Source: Mesostigma viride (Eukaryota; Streptophyta; Mesostigmatophyceae; Mesostigmatales; Mesostigmataceae). From it: a DNA stretch of 64,000 nucleotides. The notes below the pieces were generated by a model. The model worked only from the letters and a program-made list of their open reading frames with translations. It ran no database searches and was not told the origin of the DNA. Position numbers and translations under genes: made by a program. The stretch lies in contig RPFO01000310.1 in NCBI GenBank assembly GCA_009746045.1, forward strand, positions 2,798,445 through 2,862,444. The letters are read 5' to 3'. Below, one piece after another: positions 13,847 to 40,815 of the stretch (its first letter is position 1; each line of letters starts with the position of its first letter).

Positions 13847-13858
13847 TGGTATCGGAGG
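13847..13858 (+). promoter_or_regulatory. Primer binding site (initiator Met tRNA type)
   Basis: TGGTATCGGAGG lies one base after the LTR. It resembles TGGTATCAGAGC, the complement of the 3' end of initiator methionine tRNA used by many plant LTR elements. Confidence 0.75.
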
Positions 13859-21000: not shown

Positions 21001-21289
21001 CCACGACTCTCTAGTCGGCGGTCATCAGGGCATTGGGCGGCTGCTACCAAGGGCACGTCGTCACTTCTACTGGCCTGGCATGAAGGACTACATTGCGGCC
21101 TATATACGCGAATGCCCGTCGTGCCAGATAGCCAAGTCCCAGAACACGGGTACTCAGGCTGTCCCAAAGACGCTACCTGATCCCCTGGGTCCCTGGGACT
21201 CGATCCAGATGGATTTCGTCGGCCCCTTTAAGAAGACCAAGAACGGCAACAGCAAGATCTTGGTGTTCGTTAGTATAGTGTTAGTATAG
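18092..21289 (+). CDS. pol: Chromovirus Pol: protease, RT, RNase H, integrase (part)
   Basis: 1065 residues from the first possible codon. This is GTG, so a separate start is unlikely. The frame is open from 18029 and lies -1 to gag, which ends at 18092, so frameshifting or readthrough is plausible. Protease: FMVDTGATTSF (D120) and IILGVDW (about 188-194). RT: DYRKLNAI, FTVIDCADGFWQLRI, then YLDDILVYS (509-512), preceded by an unusual insert of about 25 residues after NDILRP. RNase H: VVATDASKVAIGG through VPDALSRRADY. Integrase zinc domain: H967...GGHQG...CPSC near 1010; the core starts IQMDFVGPF. It stops early at 21287-21289 because of a small insertion at about 21271. Confidence 0.9.
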   Translation: MPLPTGVEVGVELVNQVAQTPAPDVGAEIASVNNVDRTGGQAPEVSPLSSYADVSATEVDHVSANHVDRSGGQAPEAPPSAASPSTRTLLVFSGGLALPTTTLDPFLKEKTILDVKFMVDTGATTSFIHEALVRRAGYTIRPHPTPINVRYADGNKHPSPGLVDLKAVVQGIPVEVTATVAPLGAADIILGVDWQDAQDVTISVKRRVVWFPDGSFWCPRHEYLAHGTEVHNVQHDAGPEKPRRHASQMLMSSKTLARNLQKGKEYYMYRLDSVPLLEELLEIGTDFTDDEIARYNAILAKREKLFDESTPQFPPPRSVLHHIRLKEGFGPTTSPMYRMGPVELMELKKILMALLERGLIEPSNSPFSAGVLLVPKPGGKWRLVTDYRKLNAITVKSKYPLPRIDDIFNRVQGATCFTVIDCADGFWQLRIAEEDCHKTAFNTPYGHYQFRVAAMGLCNSPASFQMLMNDILRPVMGTAHLPQVSSDLRDPRKGDKPPWSWKRTCALAYLDDILVYSKTFEEHLEDVDTVLRIMEDEHLSARRAKVRAGRSVPFLGHTLSAAGVATDPEKIASVQQWPAPTDVKGVRSFLGIASYYRRFIPRFATIASPINALLKKGVSFVWSAQCQQAFEALKASLTAAPVLVLPDPSLPFVVATDASKVAIGGVLLQDQGKGLQPVEYISRTMIPAERNYPVHQQELLAVVYCCHTWRHHLLGAQFDVAVSETGDLDPARLIIHTDHRPLTHLLTQPNLTPRQARWMEYLSQFAPFKIQYVKGADNVVPDALSRRADYWFYEDMGVLHTTCEEAPGAPLYDDLPRSPRARHLFHMSHTTPDALSPPDGDDDQRVDARSPGEGEGSHTRVPLGAVAQAIFHLEPLGSPVVVSEYLHSALDQPEEEDEADAYTVTSPLEMLISRFTVTEPAALEVIKSHPKMMGRLPCKFQEGRLYVMVRPDTWRLYIPELCRAALLHELHDSLVGGHQGIGRLLPRARRHFYWPGMKDYIAAYIRECPSCQIAKSQNTGTQAVPKTLPDPLGPWDSIQMDFVGPFKKTKNGNSKILVFVSIVLV

Positions 21290-21347
21290 TGTTACGGACC
21301 GATTTGCCCCAGTGGGCAAAAGGTTCCTGCACTATTTAACGTAACTG
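21271..21347. mobile_element. About 75-bp insertion with hairpin inside integrase
   Basis: Between ILVFV and the expected continuation RLTRMCHL lies an extra segment. It has two direct copies of AGTATAGTGTT and a perfect hairpin TTTGCCC-CAGT-GGGCAAA (21303-21320). It introduces the stop that ends pol. Its exact edges and TSD are not clear. Confidence 0.5.
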
Positions 21348-21955
21348 ACCGACTCACGCGCATGTGTCACCTGGCCCCCTGTCCGGCTGACCTCACGGCC
21401 GAGGGGTGTGCCAAACTGTACCTCAACCACGTCTTCCGGTTCCACGGGCTCAGCCGCCAGTTCATCTCGGACCGGGACACGCTCTTCACCGCCCGGTGAC
21501 TGGCAGGAGTTCTTCGACTGCCTGGGAACCAAGGTGTCGCTAGGGACGGCTTATCACAGCTCGTCCTCCCATCTGGTGGAGCGACTCAACCGCACGGTAC
21601 AGGAAACCATGCGCCATTACACCGACGAGGTGGGCAGCAACTGGGAGGAGTTGCTGTGCTTGGTGGAGTTCTCCCTGAACAACGCACCACAGGCAGCCCA
21701 TGGCCTAACCCCGTTCTTTCTCAACACGGGAAGGCATCCGCTGACGCCGACCGACTTGCTGACGAGTCCGGCGCTGGCGGAACCGGAGGTGCTGCGCACT
21801 ACTCTGGCGGGCGTGAGCAGCCTGCTGGAAAAGATGCGCCAAGCTCACAACAGTGCGGTTAAAGGGTACCGGGCCGCTGCCGAGCGCAACATGGCTCGCG
21901 TGGAAGGCAAGCGGGACTCTAGAGCACCGGACATCGAGGTCGGGGACTGGGTCCT
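21348..21955 (+). pseudogene. pol: Chromovirus integrase core (continuation)
   Basis: Reads RLTRMCHLAPCPADLTAEGC, FISDRDTLF (second catalytic Asp), then after a 1-nt shift near 21495 DWQEFFDCLGTKV...HLVERLNRTVQE (catalytic Glu) and continues to VGDWVLV. There it is cut by the Copia-like element. The first Asp lies before the small insertion. D,D,E are all present, so the enzyme was intact before these interruptions. Confidence 0.85.
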
Positions 21956-22428
21956 AGTTAGAATGCGGTGGGATATATTGCTTGAGAACACTGTAAGCTG
22001 TGAGCAATGAATTGCTTGGTTCATTAGAAAATAGGTTTACCCTTTATCAACGTTCCTCTCACCGGCTGCGCCGCCAGTGACCGTTGGGTGCAGACCGTTG
22101 GCCCGAGGCCGCACGATGACAGGTAGCTGCCTAGTCACTGCATCGTGCGATCACAGATCAATGCACGCTGCAGTACGGTCCCTATCTAGGATACTCTAGT
22201 ACCGTCCAATGACAGGACACTACGTATACTGGGTACTGACATCTGTCACGTACCTCAGTACCCAAAGTACCTATCTAGGGAAACGTATGCGACTCGACTA
22301 GCATCCCTATCTGCATAGCCCACGTGGTATTTATATTCACATACCAACGTGGGTTTACAAGGCTTATTCATACGTTGTATTCACAATGCCTTTGAGACTT
22401 AGTCTACAGCAAAGCATGGAGACTAACT
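21956..22428 (-). repeat. Copia-like element 3' LTR
   Basis: 473 nt; starts AGTTAGAATGCGG and ends AGACTAACT on the plus strand. No difference from the other LTR was noticed. Confidence 0.9.
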
Positions 22429-22802
22429 CCAGTATTGTTTTATTATTTATTTCTTAATGCAGGTCTGCACCCCCAACATTATTGTTATTGTTTTTAAGTT
22501 GATTAGGGGTACAAAAGAGACATGGCTGGTTGAGCCAGGTTGGTTACAGCTGGCTGTTCTGGCCAGGTGTTATATTGCACATTAAATAAGGTGTACACAG
22601 CTGGCTGGTTTGGCCAGGTACTGAAGCACACATTAAGTAAATGGATACAAAGCTTGTGTCCTCAAGCTGCAAATGGATACAAATCTGACCTAGCCAGCAC
22701 TCACACCCCACAACGAATGTGTTGAATTTTATGGCGCCCAGCAGCTATCGCTGTGGTAAGGGGGTGTGGTGGTTGTGTACTGTGCTATGGCCAGTCATTT
22801 AT
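22429..22802 (-). other. Copia-like element 3' non-coding region
   Basis: Contains degenerate repeats of GGCTGG(T/C)T..GGCCAGG (22520-22620). No ORF. The polypurine tract expected next to the LTR is not evident; the sequence there is A-rich. Confidence 0.5.
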
Positions 22803-23576
22803 TCAAACACTGACTCTGATATCATAGGGGTTCATGTTCTGAAAGAGGAGCTGGTACTGTTGGCCAGCAGCATCCCGCAGCTTCGTGAGAGCGTCTGCTG
22901 GGTTGTCCTCATCATCCACATGAGTCCAGCTGGAAAAATAGGTGGCCTCCTGTTTGAGGATCACCCAATCCAAGTCAGTGTGGACAGCAGCAGAGACAGA
23001 TTTCTTGGTTAGAAAGCTGATCACAGATTGGCTGTCAGTATAGAGATGTGAGATGACATTGCATGTGCTGCCTGCCTGGGTTTGTAGCCAGGTGAGCATG
23101 TGCTGCAGGGAACGAGCATGCAATGCAGCAGACACCACAGCACGACATTCAGCTGAGTTGCTGCTGCCAGGTTTTCTGCGGTGTAGCCTGCTGTACCAGG
23201 AAGTGAGGGACATGTAATCTGACCTGTTGGTGAGAAAAAACAGCCCTGATTCCCGTGCCCCCATCTGATTGATTGTTCTGCTCTCCATGGAGCTGTCCAT
23301 GACACATTGGATGTGGATGTCTTCCATCAGATTCAGGCCATGGAGGATGAGGGGGGGACAGTCATTGACCAACTTCCTGATGTGACTGCATTTGATCTTG
23401 ACTAGAACATCATGGGTGACCCTGCTGATGACAGCTAAGGGAGCCCCACAGATGGCTGACCACCACCCCAGTTTGCCCTGAACAGTGGCACACATATGTA
23501 AGGGGAGGTAGTTGTCCTGCAGCAGATCTAGACAATCTTGGATATATTCTGCAGGAGGGAGAGAGAGCAGACCCAC
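22803..23576 (-). CDS. pol: Copia-like RNase H
   Basis: 257 residues in a different frame from the main Pol, overlapping its end (SLPPAEYIQDCLDLL continues the RT-to-RNase H connection). It has AECRAVVSAALHA, HLYTDSQSVISFL and VDDEDNPADALTK, the Copia-type RNase H signature ending in the ADALTK block. A single-base shift near 23560 separates it from RT. It could be a mutation or an assembly error. Confidence 0.8.
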   Translation of the reverse strand: MGLLSLPPAEYIQDCLDLLQDNYLPLHMCATVQGKLGWWSAICGAPLAVISRVTHDVLVKIKCSHIRKLVNDCPPLILHGLNLMEDIHIQCVMDSSMESRTINQMGARESGLFFLTNRSDYMSLTSWYSRLHRRKPGSSNSAECRAVVSAALHARSLQHMLTWLQTQAGSTCNVISHLYTDSQSVISFLTKKSVSAAVHTDLDWVILKQEATYFSSWTHVDDEDNPADALTKLRDAAGQQYQLLFQNMNPYDIRVSV

Positions 23577-26500
23577 TGATCTGGCTGCCTATGCAGCTGC
23601 AACATGATGCCACAGAACTGGATGGGGGTTGTGCTCAATTCCACCTGTTTGCCAATCTCATATGATTCCTGGACCTGCTGAATAAAGGTTTCCACCTCAG
23701 CTCTAGGCCCACAAATGAGTTGGTCATCTCCATGCCACACAAAGAACAGCAGTCCAGAGGGGGTGGGTACAACAAAAAAGCATGGGTCCAGGTCATCATA
23801 CGTGGCCTTGAGCTTTTTGAATACTTCCTCTGCTGAGTCTCTGAAAATTTTTGGGGCACTGACAAGCCCTTCCACCCCAATGTTGATGATAAGGTGGGGC
23901 TCATCAATATAAGGTTTCCACACAGCTGGGGTGTCTACCACGTACACCTTCCCTTTCCACACAGATTCAGCCTTTTCTGGGTCCCCCCTGAGGAAGGCCC
24001 TTTTAATATCAGTGGCTTTGCAGACATAGTCTTGGCCTGCATTGAGGTTGTGGAGGAAGAGGGAGAGCATGATCCTGAGTGAGGTTTGTTGCAGCCCAGG
24101 TGTGTATGTTTCCCCTTTTGGCAGTGTGGAGGTCCCCTTTAATTCTGTGACACATGGTCTGGCATGGAAGATTGGGGAGCCCACTTTTTGTGGTTTTTGT
24201 TTGAGAACAAATTTTAATCTGAGCTTTTTGGCTCCCTCTGGCACGTCCCATGAAGGGGTGACAGGCGGTTTGTATTGAGGGTTTTTGGGGTTGGGCAGGA
24301 CCCATTCCTGCCTGGCTTGGTGGACAATGGCCATCAGCCACTTGGTAAACCCTTTTTGTGTTTTGCATTCTTGTATGACGTGGGAGATTTGGTGGGGTGA
24401 GTGCATGGCTATGTCCCACTTACCCAGCCCAAAGGCTGAGGGATGGAGGAACTGGCTGTGCACTAACTTGTCCAGATCAGGGATCTCCCCTGGTGCATAC
24501 TGAGTGTTGACTGCCTTGATGACAGCATCCATACCAGGGACAATACTGGAGAGAGGGATTTTAAAGTGGTCCAGAGGAACTGCACCCACCCCTGTGACAC
24601 TGAGCTCATTAGCTGAGATAAGCACCCCAGGATAGGATACAAAAGGTTCCCCCAACAAGGTGTTACCAGAGTACCCCTCCACCACCTGGAAGGGTGTCTG
24701 AATACCAAGTATAGGGAGCATCACTTGTCCCACTACATCCAGTGAGCTTTGGCCTGAGAAATCCTGCACCCGTGCCCAAAATGAAGGTGCAATCTCAAGA
24801 CCAGGGATGGCTTGTGCACTGATCACACTGACCTGTGCCTGAGTGTCTATTGCCAGGGTCCAGGGGTCCTGACTAGTGCACACAGCTGAGACTTTTGCCA
24901 ACCCTGCGGCCACAGCAGCTTGTTGCTTATGTGACCTGTGTAATGCTTGCAAGGCGACTGCCAATCTTGACCTCAGAGCGGGAGGGTTGGCAGACAATTT
25001 GGTGCCTTGGGGCTGAGCTAATGCTTCCAACCCAGCTACCTCGTGCCTGGTTAAGCAATCCCCAGGTTGTGAAGTGGGCCTGGCTTCACTGAGGGTGGAA
25101 GGGTTCACAGAGGGTGCTGTGGTGCTGTCAACAGCAGTAATTGGTGGCTCAGAGCTACTGCTGGGCATGCTGGAGTTGCCAGATAGAAGTAGTGAGTCCA
25201 TGCTTAAAGACTCTTCCCCAGGCACGTCTGCCATGGGAGAATAATACTTCTTAATTCTATGACAGCTCACCCTGTGACGCTTCCCATTGATATTGTGCTT
25301 GACCTCCACGGTCTTGCTGTTTTTGGTAAATCCACGGATGGTAACTGGACCTAGCCAAGTTCCAACCTTACCAAAGCTGTTTTCCTTGTAATAGAGAACT
25401 TGATCACCTTTTTGGAATACTGGCCTGGAATGGGTTTTATCTTTTTCTGCCAGTTTTGCTGAGGTTTGTGCACGTGCAGTGTTGTACAGTGCTATCACCT
25501 CTGGGGGATATACACCTGCCTGCAGGCCTGCTGGGATTACTTCACCCCACGTGGCATGCAAGACAGGTCTCATGTTTAGGGTTGTGCACATTTCATGACA
25601 CCAGAGTGCCCTGTCACAATAGACCCCTGAAGTAGCATCCTTGGAAGGATTTTTGGCTAGTAGGGTTTTGACAGATCTGATGGTTCTTTCAATGACCCCC
25701 TGACCCTCATGATCTTCCAGCCCAGCAATCTCTATTGCTTCACACCCTTCCAGGTCAGTCAGACAAGAAAATTGTTGATCAAGCAAAATTCTGTCAACTG
25801 GGTAGAATCTGGGTAAAGCAATCATGAGTGCAACACGTAGCTGCCCTGCAGACATGCCAGGTAGGGGTTCCATTACTGTGAACCTGGACCATGAGTCTTT
25901 TAGGATCAGGTAGGGTTGGACATCTTTGTTGATGTGCATCACATCCCCCACTATCATGCCCCTATTGGTGGAAGGAGTTGCAGTATGCCATTTTTGAGGT
26001 TTGGGGCTATTGAACTGACATTCTTGACAGTGTTGTCTAGCCAGTTTTACTGCATTCCTGAGTTGTTTTCCCATGCTACTACCCCCCAGCCGTCTGGCCA
26101 GTTCCTCAGCCACTGTTTCATGACCCATGGCTAGGTGCAGCTGATGAGCAAGCTCCTTGATATCTATGGAGTTGTCAACAGTAGGGGTTAGTGCTTTTAT
26201 GTAAGGTTCCAGAACAGGGTGTTGGGAGGACAGTAAGGTTGCTGCCTCAAAATCAATTATGCCCTGGTTGCCATCCCCAATGGTAATGAGATCATCATCC
26301 TCAGAGTACATAAGGTGAGTGAACTCACATTGATTTGGGTAGCGAGGCCTGTTGCAACGGCTGCCTGGAGGCCCCAGGGGATGACGTGCGTGCCAGCAGC
26401 CCGGGCAGAGATCCACCCCGTTGGCCAGGGAGTCGTTGTTGGGGCAGTTGTGCCGTGCGTGCCCTCGTTGGAAGCACCTCAGGCACCTTATGGACCCCCC

Positions 26501-26634
26501 AGGGTTGCCAGGCTGGTTGTTGTTGTTGTTGTTGTTGTTTCCCTGCTGGGACCGGTTCTGGCCCTGCTGGGACCTGTTGTTGTTGTTGTTTTGGCCCTGT
26601 TGGGACCTGTTGTTATTGTTGCCCTGCTGGGACC

Positions 26635-26665
<31 letters not shown>

Positions 26666-26686
26666 GGGGTTGCCATGCAGGGGCAC
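23528..26686 (-). CDS. pol: Copia-like Pol: zinc knuckle, integrase, protease-like, RT
   Basis: 1052 residues. After an Asn-rich run comes a zinc knuckle CLRCFQRGHARHNC (about 69-82). Integrase follows: HLAMGH...CQEC zinc site, GDVMHI (Asp), ILLDQQF (Asp), GQGVIERTIRS (Glu, about 330), then a C-terminal GPVTIRGF region. A retropepsin-like segment TLAIDTQAQVSVISAQ (Asp about 611, usual Gly replaced by Gln) with LLGEPFV lies after integrase. RT: KATDIKRAFLRG and WHGDDQLICG (about 985), the Copia-type palm. Protease between integrase and RT differs from the usual Copia order PR-IN-RT-RH. The frame is -1 to gag, with the overlap lying in an (AAC)n tract. Confidence 0.88.
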
Positions 26687-29118
26687 ACGGTGCCACGTGT
26701 TGCCACGCCCCTGAGAGCCACTGCCCCCTTGGTGGGAGGACTTGTGGGTCTTGGGTGCCCCCCCTGGCTGGCCTGCCCCTTGCGTTTGTGGCCTTGGACA
26801 CCCTGGACCTTGGGGTCCTGGGCCTGGTTGTTGCCAGTACCCAGGGGGTCCACTGCCTCCTCGATATAGAGCATGGCAGCTCTGAAGTTGTCCCAGAGGG
26901 ACTTGAGGCCTGTAAGCAGGGTAGCCAGGACAGAAGGTTGCAAATTAGCTTTTGTTAGCCAGGTGTGGATGAGATACCTTGGTTGGAGCTTGAGAAGCTC
27001 AAGGTCTTTCTCAATCATTACCCTGTATGTTTTTGCATCCCCAGAGAGGTTATTCTTGTTCACCTTATATGCAGCAAGCCAGTTGAAACGTTCTACTGCT
27101 TCCATGTGGTTATTGGTAAGCACTAGCTGTTTCAGATCAGTGATAAAGGTAGGCCACTGTTCAATGGCTGCTTCAGGTGTCAGGGTACGTTCCTGATAGG
27201 TTTGAATCAATGCTCTGATTGCAGGAGATGATTGATGGAATGTGGAGGAGGCCCTGAGAGCCTTAAACTGATGTCTAAGGTTAAGACCTTCCATCCCATA
27301 CTCCAAAGCAAAAACAAATTGCTTAGCTTGTTCAACAGTGTGACCCTCAGGCAAGCCAGCAATATTGATTTTGGATTCCTTTTTATGAGGGTTAAACACA
27401 CCTGTGAGAGGGGGGTTGGCCCTCAAGAAGCCGTCGGTTGCTTGTTGCAGGCGGGTGGGGTCCAGGTTGATGGTCCCCCGCTCATACCGCGACATCAGGG
27501 CGCGCAGGCCCTCGACAGTTTGCAGCTGGTTAGCTGTTAACTGCTGATCTTGCAACGAGGCCAGCTGGGCCTGGAGAATGGCGAGCTGTTCCAGGACATC
27601 CCCGCTCCTTGGGGGGGCCTCAGCAGGCCTGTTGGGTGCCTGTGGCACCTCTGCACCTCCCCCCAGGGCCTCCTGGGGTCCTGGCCACCCCCCCTGGTTT
27701 GGGAGGGGGCCCCAACCCACAGGGCGAACCTGGGGTGGTGGGGGAGGGGGAGGGGGGGTCATGGTGGCCCTGGGGGAGCCCGGGGGTGTCCGGGTAACCC
27801 CACTGGGTCCAGCCCCATCGGTGGAGGGGCGGGCAGGGGTGTCTGCCTCTGCTCTCCTCCTGGCCTCCTCCCGCATGAGACGCTTCATCTCCTTGCGTAC
27901 CTCATGCTCCCGGAGGGCTGCCTGAAAGGCAGCCTCATCCTCGGGTATGTCAGGGAGTGGTTCTCCCATGATCATAGCAGGCCGGACTGGACAGTCCGCC
28001 TCTTTGCCCTTCCTCGCACCCAGGGCCAGCAGTCCCTCCTTGTACTGCAGGGGTTGGGGGGGAGAGGGTTTCTTGCTGGTGGTTTCCAGCGGGGGGGCTT
28101 CTTCAGCTACCACCCCATGTTTGGCCAAGATGGCCTCCGTGACCCTGGCTTGGGTGATGGAGGACATGGTTTTAAAGTGTGCTGACCGAGCAAGCTCGGC
28201 CAGGTCTTGACTGTCCGCATAGTCCATGGGATAGTCAGCATTTTTTAAGAGGTCACGTAACCGCTGGGTGGCCTCGCGGTACGCGTCCGCCATCGCCTGG
28301 TGGGTAGCCAGGCGACGGGCGGCTTCCTCTTCATATTCTTGCCGCTTAGCGGCGAGCCGAAAAGCCGCCTCTCGGCGGACCTCTCGGTCCCGCTGCCGCG
28401 CTCGGCGTTCTTCATTTGCCACCAGCGCGGCCTGCTCGACCGCCAGGAGCGCTGGGGTAAGATTGATCTCAGTCTCCCCATCGGGGAGACTGGCAGTGTC
28501 GGATACCTCATCGTCGGACATTGGTTGTCCGGCGATGGGTTCCACAGGTTTTCGCACCACCCGTGCGAGTTTAATACTCTCCATGTCCTTCTTCTTGCGA
28601 AGAAGGGACGCAGAGGGTCGCCCAAACGTTAGCTCAATGTGGTTATGTCCCTGGGCGAAAGGGACATTAAGGTTTGATGTGGCGGGACGAAAGGTAATCG
28701 TCCCGTCCGGTGCCACCGAGGCCGTCTGACGGGGCATACGCTCCCGAAGAGATGGCAACGTGGGGCCGGACTGTGGAGCCTCAGTGGGGTTTACCACCGA
28801 GGTCTCCGCAGCCATGGCCGCGCCAGCCGTGGTTGCGGCTGGGGCGGCCGCCGGAGTCGAGGGTAAGCCGGTCTCCCCGGGGGGAGCCGTCTCGGCCTCC
28901 GGCCTCGCAGGGGAGGGGGGTAGGTCGGTCGGCTTTGCAGCCGCCGTCCCCTCGTCCTGGCAACCATTGTGAGTCTTTTTGTTCTTTTTCTTTTTCTTGG
29001 AAATGGCCGCATCGCCAGCCGGCTTCTTGTTGTTGTCTCTGGGCATCCGCCGATCCTGCCCATCATCATCCTCGTTGTAGGTAAGCTTCTTAGCGACATT
29101 CTTGTTCGTGATAGCCAT
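26488..29118 (-). CDS. gag: Copia-like Gag
   Basis: 876 residues from the ATG 18 nt inside the LTR. The N terminus is charged (KKKKKNKK) and Ala/Pro-rich. A long Arg/Glu/Ala helix, probably a coiled coil, spans about 230-300 (NEERRARQRDREVRREAAFR). A proline-rich linker follows, then a capsid-like region (FNPHKKESKINIAGLPEGHT ... SLWDNFRAAMLYIEEAVDPL). The C-terminal 70 residues are Thr-runs encoded by (ACC/AAC)n that overlap the Asn-runs of Pol. The zinc knuckle is not in this frame but only in Pol. Confidence 0.8.
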
Positions 29119-29136
29119 GGTAGCAAATAAAATTCA

Positions 29137-29609
29137 AGTTAGAATGCGGTGGGATATATTGCTTGAGAACACTGTAAGCTGTGAGCAATGAATTGCTTGG
29201 TTCATTAGAAAATAGGTTTACCCTTTATCAACGTTCCTCTCACCGGCTGCGCCGCCAGTGACCGTTGGGTGCAGACCGTTGGCCCGAGGCCGCACGATGA
29301 CAGGTAGCTGCCTAGTCACTGCATCGTGCGATCACAGATCAATGCACGCTGCAGTACGGTCCCTATCTAGGATACTCTAGTACCGTCCAATGACAGGACA
29401 CTACGTATACTGGGTACTGACATCTGTCACGTACCTCAGTACCCAAAGTACCTATCTAGGGAAACGTATGCGACTCGACTAGCATCCCTATCTGCATAGC
29501 CCACGTGGTATTTATATTCACATACCAACGTGGGTTTACAAGGCTTATTCATACGTTGTATTCACAATGCCTTTGAGACTTAGTCTACAGCAAAGCATGG
29601 AGACTAACT
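29137..29609 (-). repeat. Copia-like element 5' LTR
   Basis: 473 nt, appears identical to 21956-22428. The last 30 nt (29580-29609 on the plus strand) recur exactly, inverted, at 35726-35755. Confidence 0.9.
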
Positions 29610-29614
29610 GTCCT

Positions 29615-30053
29615 GGTAGAGGGACCCCAGCTCGGTCGATTCTCCCAGAAGGTGGAAGGGGAGCTCAAAACGAAGCTCCGGCCCATGTACCTGGGGCCCC
29701 ACCAAGTGCTGGAGAAATGGGATGATGTCATGTTCAAGGTGGACGTGCCCATCTCATGGGGCACCGCAACAACCTTCCACCGCGACCAGCTCAAGCTGTA
29801 CCACCAGAACTCGATCCAGGGTAGACTCAATCCCCCGGCTCCTGTGGAATACGATCCGGAGACAGGGGAACAGGAGGACGAGGTCGAGGAGATTGTCGCC
29901 CATCGCGATTTCGGGCGTGGTCGACAACGCCAATATCGGATCCGGTGGAAGTTCTCTAGATATGGGGCAGAGGCCTCTTGGCGGACGGAGAAGGAGCTCT
30001 CTGGCTGCAAGCGGTTGCTAGACGCGTACAAGAAGGTCCACAGGTTGCAATAG
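29615..30053 (+). CDS. pol: Chromovirus integrase C terminus and chromodomain
   Basis: Continues VLVEGPQLGRFSQKVEG after the Copia-like insertion. The integrase C-terminal GPF-type module is LRPMYLGPHQVLEKWDDVMF...FHRDQLKLYH. A chromodomain follows: VEEIVAHRDFGRGRQRQYRI then RWKFSRYGAEASWRTEKEL, the pattern Y.V.WkG....sWEp.. with variations. Chromodomains of chromoviruses steer integration to marked chromatin. It ends with TAG at 30051-30053. Confidence 0.9.
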
Positions 30054-30110
30054 AGGTATGTACATACACTTAGAGGTATGTACATACACATAGAGGTATG
30101 TACATACCAC
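30053..30110 (+). repeat. Three tandem copies of AGAGGTATGTACATACAC
   Basis: Each copy of about 20 nt contains the perfect palindrome GTATGTACATAC. They sit between the pol stop and ORF3. A promoter, RNA-structure or protein-binding role is possible but unproven. Confidence 0.7.
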
Positions 30111-31786
30111 AGGTACACAGTACACTAGTCGGTATGACACACCGGTACTCACAGGTGTTGCCTCGCTGCTCGTGGTCATTCCTTGTACAACAGACGGGCT
30201 CCCCAGAGGAGACTCGATCCAGCCCCAGAGGCAGCCCCAGAGGCAGTGATTCCAGCAGTCCCTTGGTGCGGTTCACACCCCCAGCCTCCCCAGAGGAGCC
30301 GGCAGGGTTCGTGCCAACTTGGACCAGTTTTGGCAAGAGGCGACGGTCGGAAGACATGACTTAGGAGCAGGGGTCGGATATAGCCGCGACCGCCAACGAG
30401 AACAACCGTGAGACCTTTAATCCGCGGACGTTTCTGCCCGACTACGGCCAGGAGGGCGTGTTCTTGGCGCGTCGACGGCGCAGGCACGGCAAGGCCGATC
30501 AAGACTACCTGGCCTCCTCGGTTCTGGAGTGGCCCCGCGATCGACACGAGAAGTTCCGCGAATCCGTGCAAAGGCATTGCGGGTTCAAAGTCGAGACCCG
30601 GACGGCGATTCGAGGGAATGTGGCGGTAGGGACAGCTTGGGAGGACCACGCACCCAGCTGTGCCTGCGACCGTTGCGTGACTACGGTGTCGGCCCTCATG
30701 GCCTACCCACGCCTCATGTTCTTGCTCGTCGCACCGGCACGACGTCAGACCCTGCAGTGGGCCTACCGGGGTTTGCCGCCAGACGGGGCCTTACGGGGCC
30801 CGTTCTGCACCACCAACGGCCAGTACTCCCTTCGGCAGGCGCTGGACCGTATCGTGGAATTGGACGAGGCGGATGATCGCGGAGGGGAGGGCCCCGATGA
30901 TGAGGAATACGGGAGTGAAGACGACGACCTGTTTCCGCCGCGTCCGGCGCCCCGGGAACCTGCCCCCTCAGCCGGCAACGCCTCGCGCGACCCCCGCCGC
31001 CGTGAGAACTCGGGTGACCGCAGCTCACAGGACGCGTCCCGCTCCAGAGAGGCTTCCCAGGGTGTGGGTGTACGCCCGGGGGCGCGTGAGGAGGAAAGGT
31101 CCTTTCGGCGGACCTGGGACCAGGCAACGGCCCACCAACGACCACACTCGGGGTCGCGGTCGCCAAAGACGGCCCCAGAGGTCGTACCCTCGGCTGGTCG
31201 TGGCAAGGCGGTGGCGGACACGTCTACTGCACAGGCCCAACGTTCGACCCCAGAGGTCGCACCATCGGCTAATCGTGGCAAGGCTGTTGCGGACCCATCT
31301 ACCGCGAAGACCCAACGATCGACCCCAGAGGTCGCTCCGCCAGAAGCCAGTGGTACGGCTGCCCCCGGCCCGTCGTCCGTGCAGTCAACACGGTCGAATA
31401 CTGAGGTAGAAATCGCTCAACCTGCGGGTCGCGGTCAGGTGCCAGAAGTTCAGGCGCTCGCGCCAGCAATTCCGGGCCCGCCGCCCTGTCACCAGGGGTT
31501 TGCGCCGGTTGTGCCATGGACGATGGGGGACTACATCCGGCCGCTGCCCGGTCGCACTGTCACCTACGGGGGCAGACGCCCCCGCATGGAGATTTTATCG
31601 GTGGCTTGGCATCGGGACGCGGACATGCATCCAGCTGCGGGCTCCATACGAGTGTGGGGGCCATGCGCTAGCGTTTACTCCAGGGCCCTGGTGTTACAAG
31701 GACCGAGGGGCGTACATGGAATTGCTGAGAGTGGACCTGTATCCCCACATCCCCCACCGGGTGCCTCGGCAGATCACCCCTGGTGA
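30098..31786 (+). CDS. Chromovirus ORF3, unrecognised, with one in-frame TAG
   Basis: One frame is open from 30098 to 31786 except for TAG at 30362-30364 (GACATGACTTAGGAGCAG). The first 88 residues are Ser/Pro/Arg-rich. After the stop it reads NNRETFNPRTFLPDYGQEG, a basic patch ARRRRRHGKAD, and CACDRC. An acidic stretch and a long Ser/Pro/Arg region with repeats (AQRSTPEVAPSA, TQRSTPEVAPPE) follow. No transmembrane segments or signal peptide are seen, so it is not an obvious envelope gene. I do not recognise a family. The C-terminal domain continues in another frame (31500-32312). Confidence 0.6.
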
Positions 31787-32312
31787 GCCCTTTCCGTTCA
31801 GTGTGGATGGGGTGACGCGTTACGCCCCGGAGGGCGATCATTGGGATTACCATGTGGCGGGTTTCCCCCGTGTGGTGAAGCCCCCCAAGCTGGCTCCGAA
31901 CGCTTTGGCGTTCCTGCACGGCGTCGCCCCCGACTTCATGGATGATCGCTTGGGCCCGCCGGCAACGGAGGTCGATCTGGGACAGGTGGCCACCGTGATG
32001 CTGGGTATGGGGGAAACATATGTGGCGGATTACCGCTGTGGGGTAGTGGACAGGAACGTCAAGTCCCTTCTGTTCACCTTCCCGGAGTACATGGCCGCCT
32101 TCCTCTCCATGTGGCCTCCCAACGCGTGGGACCGTTTGTCCCTGTCCGGACGCCGTGGCACTGGCAAGCCGGAGCAGTGGGCCTTCGAGGAGGATCTCCT
32201 GAGGTTCCCAGGGACTCGGGGCCCCCAGGCCACGGAGCACGGCGAGCGAGTCTATCGGGGGGCGCACCAGCAGCAGCAGATGGTGCGGGACAGGCGAGGC
32301 CATGGCCGCTGA
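31500..32312 (+). CDS. ORF3 C-terminal part in second frame
   Basis: From about 31650 the protein-like sequence switches to this frame: LAFTPGPWCYKDRGAYMELL, GVTRYAPEGDHWDYHVAGFP, LLFTFPEYMAAFLSMWPPNA, ending in a Gln/Arg-rich tail. It looks globular with many aromatic residues, but the family is unknown. The frame change lies between about 31560 and 31680 and may be a mutation, an assembly error or recoding. Confidence 0.55.
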   Translation: MRRLCHGRWGTTSGRCPVALSPTGADAPAWRFYRWLGIGTRTCIQLRAPYECGGHALAFTPGPWCYKDRGAYMELLRVDLYPHIPHRVPRQITPGEPFPFSVDGVTRYAPEGDHWDYHVAGFPRVVKPPKLAPNALAFLHGVAPDFMDDRLGPPATEVDLGQVATVMLGMGETYVADYRCGVVDRNVKSLLFTFPEYMAAFLSMWPPNAWDRLSLSGRRGTGKPEQWAFEEDLLRFPGTRGPQATEHGERVYRGAHQQQQMVRDRRGHGR

Positions 32313-32585
32313 CCAGGAGGGTCGGCGGTGGTACGGTGATAGCTGGAAGGATTCCATTATTTGACTACGTCAAGGCTTGCCCCTGTGTGGCAAGTTCTGG
32401 GGGAATTGGTTTTACTAGTCCGATGGGTGAACATGGGCTGGGACATAGTACCCCTATGGTCAATCTGATTTTTGCCCTGCGTGGCAAGTAGAATAACCCT
32501 GTGTGGTTAGTAGCATGTTTGTTGTGTGCTTTCTCTCTTTAGTTGCTGGTCCTTATCTACATGACGGTAGGGACTACCGTCCCCC
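32313..32585 (+). other. Chromovirus 3' non-coding region
   Basis: No ORF. Two loosely repeated phrases (GCCCTGCGTGGCAAGTAGAA, CCTGTGTGGTTAGTAG) precede the purine tract. Confidence 0.5.
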
Positions 32586-32600
32586 GGGGAGGGGGAGGAG
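32586..32600 (+). promoter_or_regulatory. Polypurine tract
   Basis: GGGGAGGGGGAGGAG lies directly before the 3' LTR. It is the expected plus-strand primer for LTR retrotransposons. Confidence 0.85.
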
Positions 32601-33282
32601 TGTTGCGAACCCGACCCTTGGAACGGGCGCAACAATGGAATAAACTATGTATTTTGGCTTGTTGTCATAGTCCGTAGGACTTTGGGACTCATTTCGGGAC
32701 TTAATTTGGGAATTGTCCCTTGGTCAGGACTTTTGTATGGAACTATGATAGTTTGTGTGATTCGGACCGGTTATTTTGGGCCTAGGTTGATGTACGAGAT
32801 CTTCTAGAGCTAGTAGGCCGGTGCAGTCGCGCCGCGCTGCGTACTTTATAGCTGGTTGAGATATTGTACCCATGGATTCTGTAGCCTGGCGAGGGTCGAT
32901 GTCGACCCGAGGATCTTGTGTGGACTGCATGTTTCGGAATTCTCTGGAAGGCCGGCGCCATGTCGGCGCCCCTTGCCAGCCTGGTGGCAGACCTAGGTGA
33001 AATTGGTCCGAGGACGAGAGTCTCGTCCTCTTGGTTCGGAATAAAGTGTGTGTTATCACCTGTCTGAACCTGGGGCATAATTCCAACTGCATTTGGTAGC
33101 TCCATCCTAAATGTGGATTGTGTAGATTAATGCAATATTAATCAACGCGAGCCGTAACAGGCCTAAAGCCACGCCTGTTCCGTTAATCCCACTCCCAGAG
33201 AGTGGTCGTGGTTAGCCAAGAAACCGGGAATAACCTACCTTAACAATAGGATCTTTCGCACGACCCAGATGGGTTCGTTACA
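32601..33282 (+). repeat. Chromovirus 3' LTR
   Basis: 682 nt, near-identical to 13169-13845. Followed by CATGC, the TSD. Confidence 0.92.
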
Positions 33283-35379
33283 CATGCGAACCCACTCGTA
33301 CAGACGGGTCCCACCCCAAAAGGCCAGCTTGCGCTGATCTGCCTCTACGACCTTGATCTGATGGAAGCCGCTACGCAAATCTAGCGACGACACATACTTG
33401 ACCTGGGGAGATATTTTATCCAAAACATCATCGACCCGAGGCATGGGGTACCTATCAACAGGAGTGTGCGCGTTCAGCTGACGCAGGTCAGTGGCCATGC
33501 GCATACCTGTCCACTCGCCTGTGATGGTATCCTTCTTGGGTGCGACCACCGTGGCAGCTGCATAACTGGAGGATGAAGCGCGGATGATCCCAGCTGCCTC
33601 TAGCTCTCGACAGTTAGCATCTACGAATTCCAGCTCAGCCAAGCTCAGCCTATGCTGCCGCCTGAATAAGGGCTGATCCGTATCTAGTGGGACCCCCATG
33701 CAGCCCCCGTTGTAGCACCCTAGTTCTTCACTGCTGAAAGCGAAAACTGAGCGTGCAGAATGCAACCAGTGCTCCATAGCCTTGCGTTGCGCGGCGGTGA
33801 GGTGCTCACCTATGGCCCATATGTGAGAGGCAGCAGGATCTGCGACTGCGGCACTCCTACTGTCGAGACAAGGCCCCTGGACAGCGGCATCGTGGAAAAG
33901 GGAAAATGCGGCTACACCGGGTGTGACGCTCACCTGCTGAATGGCACGGACTGCGCGACCAACCGATTGCTGCAGGGTGGGCGCTCCAGCGAACACCGTG
34001 CTGGACAACAAGGACGTCATGAGGATAACGCTCCATAGTTGAAGCAGCCGCGATCTCCATGGCGACCCAGTGCCGCTGGACGCTGTTGGCCGGACACCAG
34101 CCGCGTGGGCACTGACAGGCGGTGGCGGTGTGGGGATATCTCCCCCACCCTGGCGCACTTGCATTGCGGCCCGCAGAACATACCCAACCTGGAAGGCTGA
34201 CATGGCTTGCCCAACGAGAGACCACCTAGTGGCCTCTAAAACCCCCTCAGCGGCGGACGCCCCCACATGGAACCCCATGCTCACCTCCCGAAACTCAGCG
34301 GGCGGCTGCACCAACAAACCCGTACCGGTGTCCCATACCAAACCCTTGCCCCGGTCCCTGTAGGCCGATGACCCCTGGTAACTAACCAAGGTGGGAAGAG
34401 CGCACATAGGCTTACCTACGTGATTGACGGGCGCGTAAGGGTGCCGATCGGCGACGTCTACCCGCTGCGTGACCAAATGTGGTGGCAGCGCCACCTCCGC
34501 GGGCATGCCGTCGTGCTGTCGTGTGATCGCATCTACCACTGCCTGGATGGTGGTGGTGAGTGCAAGGTTGGTCCAGAATGCGCGGTACCTGTGGGTGAGC
34601 CCGCCCAATCCTGCATTGTCGCACGTGACTGGTGCCCCTAAGATGTCCACGATCTGGGCCCAGTCCTTCCTCACTACCTCGTGAGGGCTGTCGTCGGCCA
34701 CCACGTTCTCAAAAAGATACGCTAGTGGCTGGTCCTGCAGCTGCTGCAAGAGTCCAACGACTCGAAGCAGATCCCAAAACAACCCGCTCCTAGGATCCGC
34801 AAGCCCGCGTCTTACGCCGGCCTGACTCAACCCTTGACATTCCCAGCCCGCGAGGACGAGGTCTATCCTCTTGTGCCGCCTCAAAAGGCCTCGCACATGA
34901 ACCTCCCCAATAGCACGGATATCCTGAGGGCACTCCCCGAACGGATCTGTCCACGCAGACGGAGGGAACTGAGATGGATACAGGGCAGACAGCTGGGCAC
35001 AGTGATGCCTATACACTGCCCGAGCGGTAGGAGACGGCTCTACGGCGATCAACGTGTGGCACGTACCGCCTGCAGCGAGAAAGCCAGCCAGCCCCCCTCC
35101 CATCCCAGCAAACAATTCTAGCAATACAACCCCTTCGGACAAGACCCGCGACTCTGCCACAACATCGGCACTGAAGTTACCTTCGGTGGTCGCGACAGCC
35201 ACTTGTGACTGCGATTGCCGCGGGAGATGAGAGAGTTGTTGCTGCCGCACCGCGTTGGTGACGTGCTGACGCAAAAGGGCCTGCCGCGCTTGCGGCTGCT
35301 GTCGCGCCGCCCACGTGCTGTGCAATGAGGCCCGTCCCACCAGCGCTGTTGGGATGCACGGCCGATGCTTATCACGCAC
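33235..35379 (-). CDS. pol: Gypsy Pol with C5-cytosine DNA methyltransferase and RT
   Basis: 714 residues; the last 16 codons lie in the inserted LTR, so the native part ends at 33283. Methyltransferase domain, about 85-405: motif I LLELFAGMGGGLAGF (88-100), motif IV LAGWECQGLSQAG (Cys181; the usual Pro before Cys is Glu), motif VI FENVV (224-226), motif VIII THRYRAFWTN (Arg264, Arg266), and a late motif X-like RWSLVGQAMS (385-394, Gln for Asn). This set identifies a DNA C5-methyltransferase; the product would methylate cytosine. RT follows: FVDANCRELEAAGIIRASSS, MRMATDLRQLNAHT, VSSLDLRSGFHQIKV, then the break at YEWVRM. It is in the -1 frame to the protease, the change lying at a C6 run (35382-35387). 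Confidence 0.88.
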   Translation of the reverse strand: MRDKHRPCIPTALVGRASLHSTWAARQQPQARQALLRQHVTNAVRQQQLSHLPRQSQSQVAVATTEGNFSADVVAESRVLSEGVVLLELFAGMGGGLAGFLAAGGTCHTLIAVEPSPTARAVYRHHCAQLSALYPSQFPPSAWTDPFGECPQDIRAIGEVHVRGLLRRHKRIDLVLAGWECQGLSQAGVRRGLADPRSGLFWDLLRVVGLLQQLQDQPLAYLFENVVADDSPHEVVRKDWAQIVDILGAPVTCDNAGLGGLTHRYRAFWTNLALTTTIQAVVDAITRQHDGMPAEVALPPHLVTQRVDVADRHPYAPVNHVGKPMCALPTLVSYQGSSAYRDRGKGLVWDTGTGLLVQPPAEFREVSMGFHVGASAAEGVLEATRWSLVGQAMSAFQVGYVLRAAMQVRQGGGDIPTPPPPVSAHAAGVRPTASSGTGSPWRSRLLQLWSVILMTSLLSSTVFAGAPTLQQSVGRAVRAIQQVSVTPGVAAFSLFHDAAVQGPCLDSRSAAVADPAASHIWAIGEHLTAAQRKAMEHWLHSARSVFAFSSEELGCYNGGCMGVPLDTDQPLFRRQHRLSLAELEFVDANCRELEAAGIIRASSSSYAAATVVAPKKDTITGEWTGMRMATDLRQLNAHTPVDRYPMPRVDDVLDKISPQVKYVSSLDLRSGFHQIKVVEADQRKLAFWGGTRLYEWVRMCNEPIWVVRKILLLR

Positions 35380-36056
35380 AGCCCCCCAGCTGCCGTGACC
35401 TCCCCCATCCGTACCTCCACCACCGCGTCGCGCGAGCCAGCCTCGACCCGGTTGACCGTCGAGACACGCACTGCCCCAGTGTCCGAGCTGTAGCAGCTCA
35501 CCGGGATGCTTGCTTGGCGCATGGCGTCACCGTCTCTGTCAACGATGTACACCGCGCGGCCTTCCCACATGCGTACCTCGAGCCGCATGGGAAACATGAC
35601 CTCCATGCCGACCAGCACGTCATACGATGACTGCTCGGTCACAAGGGCATTCACAGGGATGCAGGCCATGTCGGATGGCCTGAGCGGGTTGAGGATGACC
35701 ATTACCTGGACCGCAGTCATGGCAAAGTTAGTCTCCATGCTTTGCTGTAGACTAACTGGTTTAGCGGCAGGGCCCTGCCAGCCCGCCACGGACACATGAC
35801 TGTCCCGCAGTCCGCCATTCTCCCTGGTTAGGTTGAGCAACTGGGCCAGCCGAGCACTGATAACGAGTGGCTGGGCCCCGCTGTCCAGTTTCACGACCAA
35901 TTCATGGTCAGTGCTGTAGACCACGTTGCTCAGGGGCTCCCCGTGCCCCTGCGCCTGAAACGCCATTGCTGGCTCGCCATCCGGATATGAGGTGACAGTG
36001 GGTGCCCTAGGCACCATTACAATTCGTTCAAGTGGCCCGCCGGAGCGGCTGTACAA
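35118..36056 (-). CDS. pol: Gypsy protease region
   Basis: The minus-strand frame holds LVVKLDSGAQPLVISARLAQ, an aspartic protease active site of DSGA type, and later SYDVLVGMEVMF, similar to the ILG-containing flap end. Past about 35380 the meaningful frame is that of the methyltransferase, so the last ~85 residues here are probably out of frame. Contains the 32-nt palindromic segment at 35726-35757, read through in frame as VSLQQSMETN. Confidence 0.75.
   Translation of the reverse strand: MYSRSGGPLERIVMVPRAPTVTSYPDGEPAMAFQAQGHGEPLSNVVYSTDHELVVKLDSGAQPLVISARLAQLLNLTRENGGLRDSHVSVAGWQGPAAKPVSLQQSMETNFAMTAVQVMVILNPLRPSDMACIPVNALVTEQSSYDVLVGMEVMFPMRLEVRMWEGRAVYIVDRDGDAMRQASIPVSCYSSDTGAVRVSTVNRVEAGSRDAVVEVRMGEVTAAGGLCVISIGRASQQRWWDGPHCTARGRRDSSRKRGRPFCVSTSPTRCGSNNSLISRGNRSHKWLSRPPKVTSVPMLWQSRGSCPKGLYC
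35726..35757. repeat. 32-nt palindromic segment shared with Copia-like LTR end
   Basis: Arms AGTTAGTCT and AGACTAACT (9 bp). Thirty nt equal, inverted, the last 30 nt of the Copia-like LTR (29580-29609). The whole matches an LTR collapsed by deletion between two TTAG motifs. Confidence 0.75.
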
Positions 36057-36059
36057 TTT

Positions 36060-36740
36060 TTCCCAGTGAGCGCGCTGCCAAGTGTACTTGTGGGCAAATT
36101 TTTAGGTGCCCCGTCACTTCGAGGTACTAAAAATTAGGCTACGGTACGAATTCAGCGAATTTCAGCGAATTTTCAGTCGAACCAAAGGAAGTGACGGCAA
36201 CTACCAAAAAGTTTCCGTTACGAATTTTCAGCCCAACACTCGCGCAAAATGAAGTGACGGCAACTACCAAAAAGTTTCCGTTACGAATTTTCACTCCCAC
36301 ACGTTTGCACAAGAGGAAGTGACGGCAACTACCAAAAAGTTTCCGTTACGAATTTTCAGTCCCACACTTCGCGCAAATTTTAGTAGGGCTGCACGCAAGC
36401 TACCTTTCAAAATTTTGCGCTAGTATGGAACGCATTTCATTCGTCTGGAGGAACGCTGCCCGCCAACTACCCCCGTTCAGAAAGTTCCGCCGAAATTTAC
36501 TTGAGATTTGGAAATCTGAACGTCCGCGCAAATTTTAGTAGGGCTGCACGCAAGCTACCTTTCAAAATTTTGCGCAAGTATGGAACGCAATTCATTCGTC
36601 CGGAGGAATGCTGCTCGTCAACTGCCCCCGTTCAGAAAGTTGCGCCGAACTTTACTTGAGATTTGGAAATCTGAACGTGCGGTTGGAGTTTCGCGGGGAA
36701 ACCCAAGTTCCCGAGTAATTCACCAATGACGCGCTTCGAA
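36060..36740. repeat. AT-rich tandem repeats between gag and protease
   Basis: Three copies of a 63-65-nt unit begin GAAGTGACGGCAACTACC at 36188, 36251 and 36316. Two copies of a 155-nt unit begin GCGCAAATTTTAGTAGGG at 36371 and 36526. Non-coding and far more AT-rich than the surrounding gypsy sequence. Could be an insertion or an expanded internal spacer of the element. Confidence 0.8.
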
Positions 36741-37251: not shown

Positions 37252-39266
37252 TCACGTCGGCTGGCCGCCAGAAGTCCTCGTCCCTGTATTGAACCTGCGA
37301 TCCCCCATCCTCCCTTTCACGTCCCCCGCCTCGCCCGTCGGCTGAATGATGACCACCCCCGCGTCCACCTTCTTGTCCTCCACGTCCGCAAAGTGCACCC
37401 CCGGCGCTGGGCACTGCCCCGCCAGATGGGTGCGGACCGTTGCCGGGTGTGACTTCTTACACGCCTTGGGACAATCACGTTTGATGTGCCCATCCTGACC
37501 GCACAGGAAGCAGCCCGATTTGCGCGCATCTGTCCTACCCGTCTGTGAGGACGTGGCCCCCCCAGCTCGCGTCGGCGGAGCGGCAGCGTCCTTGTTGCCG
37601 CCAGCGGCGTTACCCTGGGTTGCATCATGCGATGAGGCGTTGCGAGACCCCCCTTGGTTCCTGCTAGCACCGTGGCCGCCTTGCGGGCGCGCTTGTCTTG
37701 TGGCAGACGACTCACCCGACTTGGCCTTGGTCAGCGCGTCGACCTTGGCCTGCAGCTCGGCCACCACCGTGCTTACCGAGATCCGGCCTTGCGCGTGTCG
37801 TCGCATCATGGCCCTGACCTCAATGCACAGTGACCGCAATCGCCACGGCTGGCCGTTGGGCGGCGTGGGCAGCTCCATCTCCTTGGAGCCTAGCGCTTGC
37901 AGCCATTTCTGACACGCCAGCTTTTCGGACCAGTCCTCCGCTTCGCCGGCGAACTCCATGAGGCGCTCGTAAGATTGCTCCGGGGTTTCACCCTCGGCTA
38001 TCTTGAAACTGCGCCACTCACGCTCTGCCTTGATGGTCTCCACCGGGTATTCCTGGCGAAGGAGGTCCCACAGTTCCTCTGCAGGGTCGACACCATACAT
38101 GATGTTGTCATAGTCGGGCTGGCCACGCCCGTCGAAGCCGAACTGACACGTCCGTGTGACGCGTGTACAGCGAGACCTCTCTCCACTGCTCCACCAGCCT
38201 AGCCACTCGCCTCAGCGTAAGGCCGTGAAAGAAGAAATGCATGTTGTTCATCACAAACTCATGCATTACAGCGCCTTGCGTAGTCATGTAATATTGCAGA
38301 TCAATCCATGACTTGTACGCGTTGTAGGCCTGCGCCAGCGTGGCCAGATTGCCGGTTGTGGAGAACTTCTCGCGCATATCCACCCGTGGTAGGGTGGGCA
38401 TCTTCGCGCCTTCAGGTATGAGGCGCACCCTTTGCGGGTACTGCACCCCATCGGCATCTTCCGGCGGTCGCTGAGCTGCGCGTCCCTGCGCCAGCGTGCT
38501 TGGGCGTGCTGCCTCCCGTACTCGGAAAGCCAGCGGCGTGGTTATGTCCTCCATGGGCGGAATGCGCCCAATTGGCACACTTGACCACCGTGCAGTCGAC
38601 CCGCCGGTCAGCGCCCCACCGCCTCGCCCAAACGGAATTGAGACCCCGCCTGGCAGCATGCGTCCTGGTGCACCCCTGCGTGGGTCCATCGCGCGCGCCA
38701 GCCCTGCCCCGTTCTCCTCGTGCAATCCGTCTCGCGCTTGATCGAAAGGCAGGCGCCTGGGCGCCAGCGTATACTCGCCCCGTGGCTGACCATCCGCCTC
38801 ACCAAGCAAGTCGTGTTGGGTTAGCGACCCAACCAAAACCCCCGGTTCCATCGAAGCCCTTCCCGCCGCATTACCTGAGGTTGGCGGCTGGTCCCGCTCC
38901 CTCGGCTCCGCGGCAACACCACTTGGGCCCGGCATCGTTGCCTGCCCGTCCCATGCATGGTGTGGACTGCAGATGACGACCCTCTACGGCCACCAATCTG
39001 TCGGTCACTTCCCGCATCTGCAGCGCCAGTTGCTGCTGCAACTGTTGCGACTGTTGCTGCATCTGCGCTTGCATCTGCGCGAACAGCGCCACCATACTCA
39101 GCGGCGCTTCTTGGTCGCGACTCTCACCCACTGCGGGTACGGCGGGAGGAATCCCGCCATTCGACCCCGGAGCGGACGTGTCGGCATCTGCTCTATTTGC
39201 ATCCGCCATGGCTCGAGTCTGCGCTCGCGTCAGTGGCATGCACCAGCTGACCGATGGGCAAAACAA
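37252..39266 (-). pseudogene. gag: Gypsy Gag, several frames
   Basis: Minus strand. 39266-38871 is an N-terminal piece with a Gln-rich coiled coil (AQMQAQMQQQSQQLQQQLAL). 38935-38108 holds a Pro/Arg-rich region and a capsid-like start (NLATLAQAYNAYKSWIDLQ). 38100-37252 has the capsid C-terminal part (WDLLRQEYPVETIKAEREWR) and one zinc knuckle CFLCGQDGHIKRDC. Frame changes at about 38900 and 38100 split one protein. Confidence 0.75.
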
Positions 39267-39270
39267 GAAC

Positions 39271-40815
39271 CAACAAGCCTAGGTTTCGCTGAGAAGAAGC
39301 AACAACCAAAGGCTTTATAACAGGCGTCAAGGGTAACGACTCGACTAGCCTGCCAGAAAAAAAGACAAGAGCCAGCAAATTCTGGCTAGTTCTATTTTCT
39401 TAAAATCTGTCTTGAGCAAGACACTTCCTTTACAAACTGTCAGCCAGGCCGTTCCCTGTACTGCTGATGGTTGATAAACACTAAAGCCAACGTCTTGGCT
39501 TCGAACAGAAGGAAGCAGACTACCGGGTAGTCTCTTCGAGTAACGTAAGGAGGGTTCTCAGCCGAGGACAAGGAACTGTCCCTCGTGCCTGATGACCACC
39601 TTAATGCTTTTGCCTCCCCTGCTATAGAACAATGTTTTCACAACACACACTTTGCACAGTCTGATGATGAAGCCGCACATGCGGAATTTATTGAGAAAGT
39701 TAATACAATTACAACACGTTGATAGTCTCAATATCGATGCACTCCATGCTCACGAGCCCGCAGTTAGGCAGCGCTCCATGACATGCTACCGGCCTTGCTC
39801 CCAAGGAAAGGGAGAAACACGAAGGCCACTAACGAGAGACTCGAAGAGACTACACGCTACGTGAGAGTCCTCTTCGACTATGAACCAAACCATTCGTCAT
39901 GCCACACGCATGACACACGCCACACTTGTCAGTCCAGCCAGGAATGCCAAAACTATCTTGCTGCCTGAACCATGCAAACAGAAACCGCATTCCAGTTGCC
40001 GTCCTGGCTTACTACCACACATGCCAACAAAAACAGGAAGGCATCCCGACAAATCTAAATTGCTACCCTGTTGCCGATCTCATCTCCTAGCTAGAGGCTC
40101 CGGCATTTCTGTCCCTGGGAATGTCCGGCATTTAGTCACGACCACCAAGGTCGAAGCATAATATCCTTCAAACAATCTGCACGCTCACACCTAATTGCGT
40201 GTGAGTGGCCCAGCAAACATTGCTTCTAATCTTTCCTTTCTAGAAGAAATCCCTTTGTAGGGCTGCCAGCGATTTCGCATTCATTCCAGCGATCTGGCTC
40301 CGCACCGCAAATTGTCCTTTTCCATTTTCTGTCCAGTCCTCATAACGTTGACCCGCTATTCTACACCACAAAGACACCTGGCCTGTCAATAGCCTCGGCG
40401 CTGTTGAAGTCCAGCAGTCCAGCTGCAGCTCCAGCTCCAGCTCCAGCTCCAGCTGTCCACTAACTCGCGTATGATCCTCTCGACGCTGCGCACTTGTGCT
40501 GCCGTCCGCTCAAGTACGTCAGTGCTGCGCGCCCAGCCGTGCCTGGCCCGGCGCGCGCGCACGTGCACTTTCGTCCGCTCTTATGCTGCAAGTGCTAGTG
40601 TCCCCCCCCCGGTCACTAGCCTTTGTCGAAAATGCGCAGAAAACAAATTCCTTGCGCACGTCACCGGTCTTGTGCATAGTGGGCGCCCGGATGACATAGC
40701 TCGCGTCCGTGACAGGTGGCACCCACGCCGAGTTATACCTCACCTACCAGGCCTATGAGGGTATAAGGAGCTGGTCCTTGAGCTCGTCGGCAAGGGCCCG
40801 GCGGTGGTTGACGTC
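39271..40815. other. No supported gene; upstream of gypsy gag
   Basis: Probably includes the 5' leader and LTR of the minus-strand gypsy, but with no second LTR I cannot define it. A short (CCAGCT)n run lies at about 40418-40452. Confidence 0.35.

Follow-up and report, generated by a model that had tools for sequence, protein, structure and literature searches.

The stretch of DNA analysed here (hereafter the window) comprises 64,000 nucleotides of the streptophyte Mesostigma viride (contig RPFO01000310.1, positions 2,798,445 to 2,862,444). Its minus strand holds the remains of a retrotransposon that is, with high confidence, Gypsy-like and bears a C5-cytosine DNA methyltransferase (MTase) in its Pol polyprotein, between the protease and the reverse transcriptase (RT). 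The RT is interrupted by a later insertion, which itself contains a further element. The open reading frames (ORFs), domains, catalytic motifs and long terminal repeats (LTRs) are collected in Table 1.

Table 1. Features of the MTase-bearing element and of the elements nested in it (positions in the window)
Feature	Position	Strand	Remarks
Gag-like region	37252..39278	-	ORFs 39278-38871, 38983-38108 and 38211-37252; three frames, two frame switches
Minisatellite between gag and protease	36179..36679	.	65-bp and 155-bp units
Protease ORF with DSGA	35118..36101	-	PF13650, E 5.4e-5, residues 65-166
Stop-free MTase-RT frame	33283..35526	-	748 codons up to the insertion point
C5-cytosine methyltransferase domain	34153..35139	-	ORF residues 130-458; profiles, model, fold comparison
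Motif I, LLELFAGMGGGLA	35086..35124	-	residues 135-147
Motif IV, AGWECQGLSQAG	34816..34851	-	residues 226-237; candidate catalytic Cys230
Motif VI, ENV	34702..34710	-	residues 273-275
Motif VIII, HRYRAFWTN	34567..34593	-	residues 312-320
Motif X region, GQAMSAFQVGYVL	34174..34212	-	residues 439-451
RT, first half	33286..33540	-	RVT_1 positions 2-103
RT, second part	12770..13163	-	PFGHRNA...; RVT_1 positions 153-205 at 13075-12770, E 2e-9
RNase H of the same Pol	12244..12942	-	PF17917, E 2.5e-39
Chromodomain Ty3/Gypsy inserted in the RT	13169..33282	+	LTRs 13169-13846 and 32601-33282; target-site duplications 13164-13168 and 33283-33287
Copia-like element within the inserted Gypsy	21956..29609	-	identical 473-bp LTRs; target-site duplication GTCCT

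The MTase and the first half of the RT are encoded in a single frame, with no stop anywhere within this stretch. The full ORF (35526-33235, minus strand) is open over 763 aa, the element's own share being 35526-33283, and the 748-codon run exceeds the longest run found in all of 2000 first-order Markov sequences of equal length read in three frames (maximum 494, median 166). Within this ORF, PF00145 matches residues 136-275 (E 1.2e-11; 45.1 bits against a curated cut-off of 22). From PHROGs, phrog_363 spans the entire domain (E 8.5e-18), a whole-domain match shared with the phage MTases of that family, and phrog_116 matches the front part (E 3e-21). The C5-MTase fold is likewise returned by an alignment-based AlphaFold2 model and by fold comparison with the PDB. 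Among PDB sequences the domain is matched best by DNMT3C, and in Foldseek by DNMT3A. A preliminary description of this DNA placed a MTase in a Ty3/Gypsy-like Pol, between its protease and its RT; domain searches, ORF continuity, model and fold comparison bear this out.

Four marks of Ty3/Gypsy elements are found: a gag with a CCHC motif, an aspartic protease, a Ty3-type RT and RNase H. The CCHC zinc knuckle (PF00098, E 6.5e-6) lies in the gag ORF 38211-37252, while the other two ORFs of the gag-like region have no Pfam match. The protease match scores 24.3 bits, which is at the cut-off. For the first half of the RT, the RVT_1 match on residues 663-747 (E 1.1e-4, 22.4 bits) falls below the cut-off of 29.6; a firmer match is that to the Ty3 RT chain 4ol8_A (E 7.8e-9). 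Position 33283, previously taken as the lower limit of the element, turns out to be the insertion site of the plus-strand chromodomain Gypsy; on the far side of that Gypsy, the remainder of the RT and the RNase H occupy 13163-12244. When the outer flanks are joined, the RT runs on continuously in one frame (...YEWVRM followed by PFGHRNASAV...). The earlier view that the MTase has stayed open while gag and RT have decayed holds for the open frame and for gag, which is spread over its three frames. It does not hold for the RT as a whole, which is split by the insertion and has frame switches in its second part only. Two switches are found in the RT/RNase H tail, the first of them at the YIDD motif. 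From about 11.9 kb the sequence resembles blocks located at 55.4 and 57 kb, and the element appears to be cut at about this point by other repeat sequence.

The catalytic motifs of the MTase stand in the correct order, with Cys230 and the Gln following it, the ENV of motif VI (residues 273-275), including its EN, and both arginines of the RxR (R313/R315) retained. Motif IV reads GWECQG (residues 227-232), and motif X has Gln440 in place of Asn, both as the preliminary description had it. The enzymes used for comparison are 55 of the 92 ORF matches from the viral contigs kept for the model alignment (80 kept, out of at least 569 viral-contig relatives of a six-phage alignment); these 55 aligned rows are mostly the shorter matches and the sample is not representative. 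They are of the DNMT3-like phage kind and share 21-27% identity with the window domain. Trp or Glu at the two places before the catalytic Cys occurs in none of the 55, which upholds, for motif IV, the divergent lineage proposed earlier. The motif X Asn is present in 53 of the 55 phage rows; Met442 for Trp and Tyr449 for His, also in motif X, replace residues that are invariant among them. Across the whole domain, 20 of the 33 phage-invariant columns are kept. The W-E-C of motif IV is encoded by TGG GAA TGT, and since by the genetic code at least two base changes separate Pro from Glu and at least one separates Ser from Trp, W-E-C is not one recent mutation.

Retroelements with a MTase have been published before. 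The report cited in the preliminary description (de Mendoza and colleagues, 2018) exists. It describes DNMTs carried by LINE and DIRS elements in Symbiodinium and, in Klebsormidium nitens, by a Gypsy element with a Dnmt3 in Pol, together with purifying selection; the DIRS domains give de novo CG methylation in yeast (PMC5890265). A 2025 survey reports DNMT3s from streptophyte and dinoflagellate retrotransposons of the LTR and DIRS types as well as orphan eukaryotic DNMTs, and has Copia where the earlier report has Gypsy (PMC12344493). The Ectocarpus case, a DNA transposon with a predicted N4C/N6A enzyme, is a different matter (PMC12477816). The available portions of PMC6338049 and PMC9861306 contain no further case, and searches of the Klebsormidium and charophyte literature returned PMC5890265 alone.

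By its published description, KnitGypsy-Dnmt3 of K. nitens shares with the window element the Gypsy affiliation and an intronless DNMT within the Pol ORF. Its key residues are reportedly conserved and its repeats arranged in the manner of DIRS elements, whereas the window element has the W-E-C motif IV and no repeats of its own were found, this comparison being one of descriptions only (PMC5890265). SymbioDIRS-Dnmt3 likewise has its DNMT in a Pol polyprotein together with RT, but as described it belongs to the DIRS class with a tyrosine recombinase (PMC5890265). In the window element the protease is of the aspartic type and gag bears a zinc knuckle, and the ORFs scanned gave no match to a tyrosine recombinase. 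The window element looks like a further, unusually divergent example of this already published kind, to which it probably belongs and whose manner of working it would share.

For the living element, we tentatively consider a function in self-methylation of complementary DNA (cDNA) quite possible. Its Pol carried the C5-MTase between protease and RT, in frame with the RT, and would have methylated cytosines of the element's freshly synthesised cDNA, either inside the particle or shortly after integration. A new copy would then arrive with the methyl mark of the host in place, as the discoverers proposed for SymbioDIRS-Dnmt3 (PMC5890265). New cDNA in the particle would be the natural substrate because the enzyme adjoins the RT in Pol, a suggestion drawn from its position and from those authors' proposal for DIRS. 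Taken together, a dead, truncated Gypsy-like copy with a MTase between protease and RT that once served cDNA self-methylation is an explanation that we regard as somewhat probable. Retrotransposons equipped with the very class of enzyme that usually silences them matter for the interplay between mobile DNA and the host epigenome, and a case in which the catalytic site is altered offers a way to ask whether selection keeps methyl transfer itself or the fold alone. The weight of the case depends on the host and its methylome.

Several observations weigh against this interpretation, some of them concerning the domain and others the element. The NCBIfam dcm model matches with E 3.8e-12 and 46.5 bits, below its cut-off of 100.65. 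A single-sequence structure model is useless (predicted local distance difference test, pLDDT, 35.3), and the alignment behind the AlphaFold2 model consists of phage enzymes, which biases that model to the phage fold. In motif IV, Glu229 stands for Pro and Trp for Ser before Cys230, where all 55 aligned phage rows have Ser-Pro, and 13 of the 33 phage-invariant columns are lost. The published Gypsy-Dnmt3 domain itself was without activity in yeast, a result that its authors call inconclusive (PMC5890265). The protease and MTase ORFs lie in different frames that overlap at 35118-35526. Codon-preference windows place the change of frame near 35.3-35.2 kb, which is weak evidence as they were trained on the very same ORF; the change may reflect either programmed frameshifting or mutation. 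No integrase was found in any of the 31 minus-strand stop-to-stop ORFs of at least 60 aa between 12265 and 4250, with shorter ORFs and the plus strand not scanned. Nor was an LTR pair of the MTase element found: blastn of 1-13168 against 33284-64000 listed 30 matches of at most 186 bp, none ending at the element's edges, and a second blastn, of 29001-41000 against the entire window, likewise revealed no pair. Because integrase and LTR pair are missing from these searches, the superfamily assignment rests on the zinc knuckle, protease, RT and RNase H, and the copy is taken to be dead; it is a nested, 3'-truncated fossil. Only this one copy was seen.

Because Glu229-Cys230 replaces Pro-Cys in motif IV, the assignment as a C5-MTase, made from sequence and model, is by fold and descent and does not extend to an active enzyme. 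The altered loop also makes loss of catalysis a serious rival: the W-E change before Cys230 may abolish methyl transfer and leave a fold that is kept for another job, such as binding or flipping DNA or RNA in Pol, or that is a mere relic. The uniform Ser-Pro of the phage MTases speaks for this, as do the changes at Met442 and Tyr449. The DNA pattern for W-E-C points the same way. It recurs in 12 stretches of viral contigs (GWECQG in frame in five of them, within ORFs of at least 60 aa) and in 31 of prokaryotic genome contigs (in frame in 11, within ORFs of at least 50 aa), and none of these is a MTase (by phmmer for the viral ones); both patterns also require a residue class after CQG, and both collections are without eukaryotes. 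However, the Cys, its following Gln, the EN and both RxR arginines are retained, and the MTase-RT frame has no stop despite the frame switches in gag and in the RT/RNase H tail. On balance we find a catalytically dead domain rather unlikely. The odd loop leaves the choice of substrate wide, and the domain might methylate RNA, either the genomic RNA or the primer tRNA, instead of DNA. RNA methylation is raised for SymbioLINE-Dnmt in PMC5890265, but of the C5-MTases that match in the PDB, DNMT2 is one of the weakest, with 13.4 bits compared to 26.0 for DNMT3C (DNMT1 is equally weak), and such a role seems quite unlikely.

The same low standing is given to self-restraint, by which the element would mark itself for silencing and so limit damage to its host; the Discussion of PMC5890265 counts a benefit to the host through slowed retrotransposition among its options. 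The least probable of these alternatives is a chance local insertion of an unrelated MTase gene between the protease and RT of one copy. The differing frames of protease and MTase and the single copy seen would fit it, but MTase and RT share one 748-codon frame that is longer than any simulated run, and such an insertion is very unlikely.

The ancestry of the domain bears on a further alternative, namely a separate capture in which an undescribed Gypsy lineage would have taken up a C5-MTase of bacterial or phage type, and not the host Dnmt3, with a W-E-C loop that would alter chemistry or substrate. Against the domain, 20 of 23 phage rows score 28.5-43.4 bits and the remaining three 8.8-18.1, compared to 22.8-27.4 for DNMT3A/B/C and 22.7 for M.HhaI. 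These higher phage scores are not evidence of a phage origin, because the phage rows were selected for likeness to the window, to each other or to their kin and no algal DNMT3 was in the comparison. Moreover, the phage set is itself DNMT3-like, its profile scoring DNMT3B with 153 bits and M.HhaI with 114. The HRYRAFWTNL of the domain resembles HRARYFWGNLP of DNMT3 (DNMT3/DRM), whereas its CQGLS and DPRSGLF are closer to the phage enzymes than to the CNDLS of DNMT3. In a 28-row tree the domain has an end branch of 3.97 and groups with M.HhaI and two phage rows (92/92, unstarred), apart from DNMT3, a grouping that the tree program flags as long branches meeting. That it falls near M.HhaI does not count against DNMT3, because the phage rows were cut to 240 residues, the rows for DNMT3A, DNMT3C and HhaI fill just 38-45% of the columns and algal DNMT3 is lacking. 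Under the approximately unbiased (AU) test, both the grouping with DNMT3A/B/C (p 0.137) and that with M.HhaI and the row L134 (p 0.434) escape rejection. The position of the domain in the tree is not secure, and on these sequences a host-derived Dnmt3 and a bacterial-like origin both stand. Searches for close relatives returned six pattern stretches in prokaryotic genome contigs and five and seven in viral contigs, with no relative among them. In phages, tblastn of the 763-aa ORF at 1e-5 gave no match; tblastn of the domain with E up to 10 gave 513 partly matching records, none covering 80% of the domain (30 of the 513 being listed). Overall, a separate capture seems improbable to us.

The MTase element is the outermost layer of a three-layer nest, with a Copia-like element in a chromodomain Gypsy in the MTase element, the inner two having 5-bp target duplications. 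The inserted Gypsy has LTRs of 98.98% identity, ends in TGTTGC...GTTACA and is flanked on both sides by CATGC. It has matches to protease, RT, RNase H, the zinc-binding domain of integrase and a chromodomain. Directly behind its 5' LTR, at 13847, lies TGGTATCGGAGG, which resembles a tRNA-Met primer site; the pattern is loose, with about two chance matches expected in such a window. The Copia label of the innermost element comes from a weak RVT_2 hit (PF07727, E 8.7e-5, is below its cut-off), and its ends read AGTTAG...CTAACT rather than TG...CA. A 30-bp exact inverted match connects the protease ORF of the MTase element (35726-35755) with the end of each LTR of the Copia-like element (22399-22428 and 29580-29609); the shared piece ends in AGTTAGTCT...AGACTAACT and shows no target duplication by eye.

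Elsewhere in the window, pieces of RVT_1 below the Pfam cut-off at 5792-4801 are taken as a LINE-like RT. Dispersed related blocks occur on both strands (11688-11873, 15780-15887, 40715-40840, 55407-55463 and 56942-57116), some of which encode a PVLLTF...KQRFLSRRKRL-like sequence, perhaps of a LINE-like ORF1. No Pfam match was obtained for the ORFs located at 54-58 kb. Long arrays of 8-bp units, CCACGCAG and GTGAAGAC, are present at 42118-43060 and 43978-45174, and a perfect CATC tetranucleotide array extends over 51874-53133 (315 copies, 100% match). An ORF of 367 aa at 60107-61207 is SMP-30/gluconolactonase-like (PF08450, E 2.5e-33).
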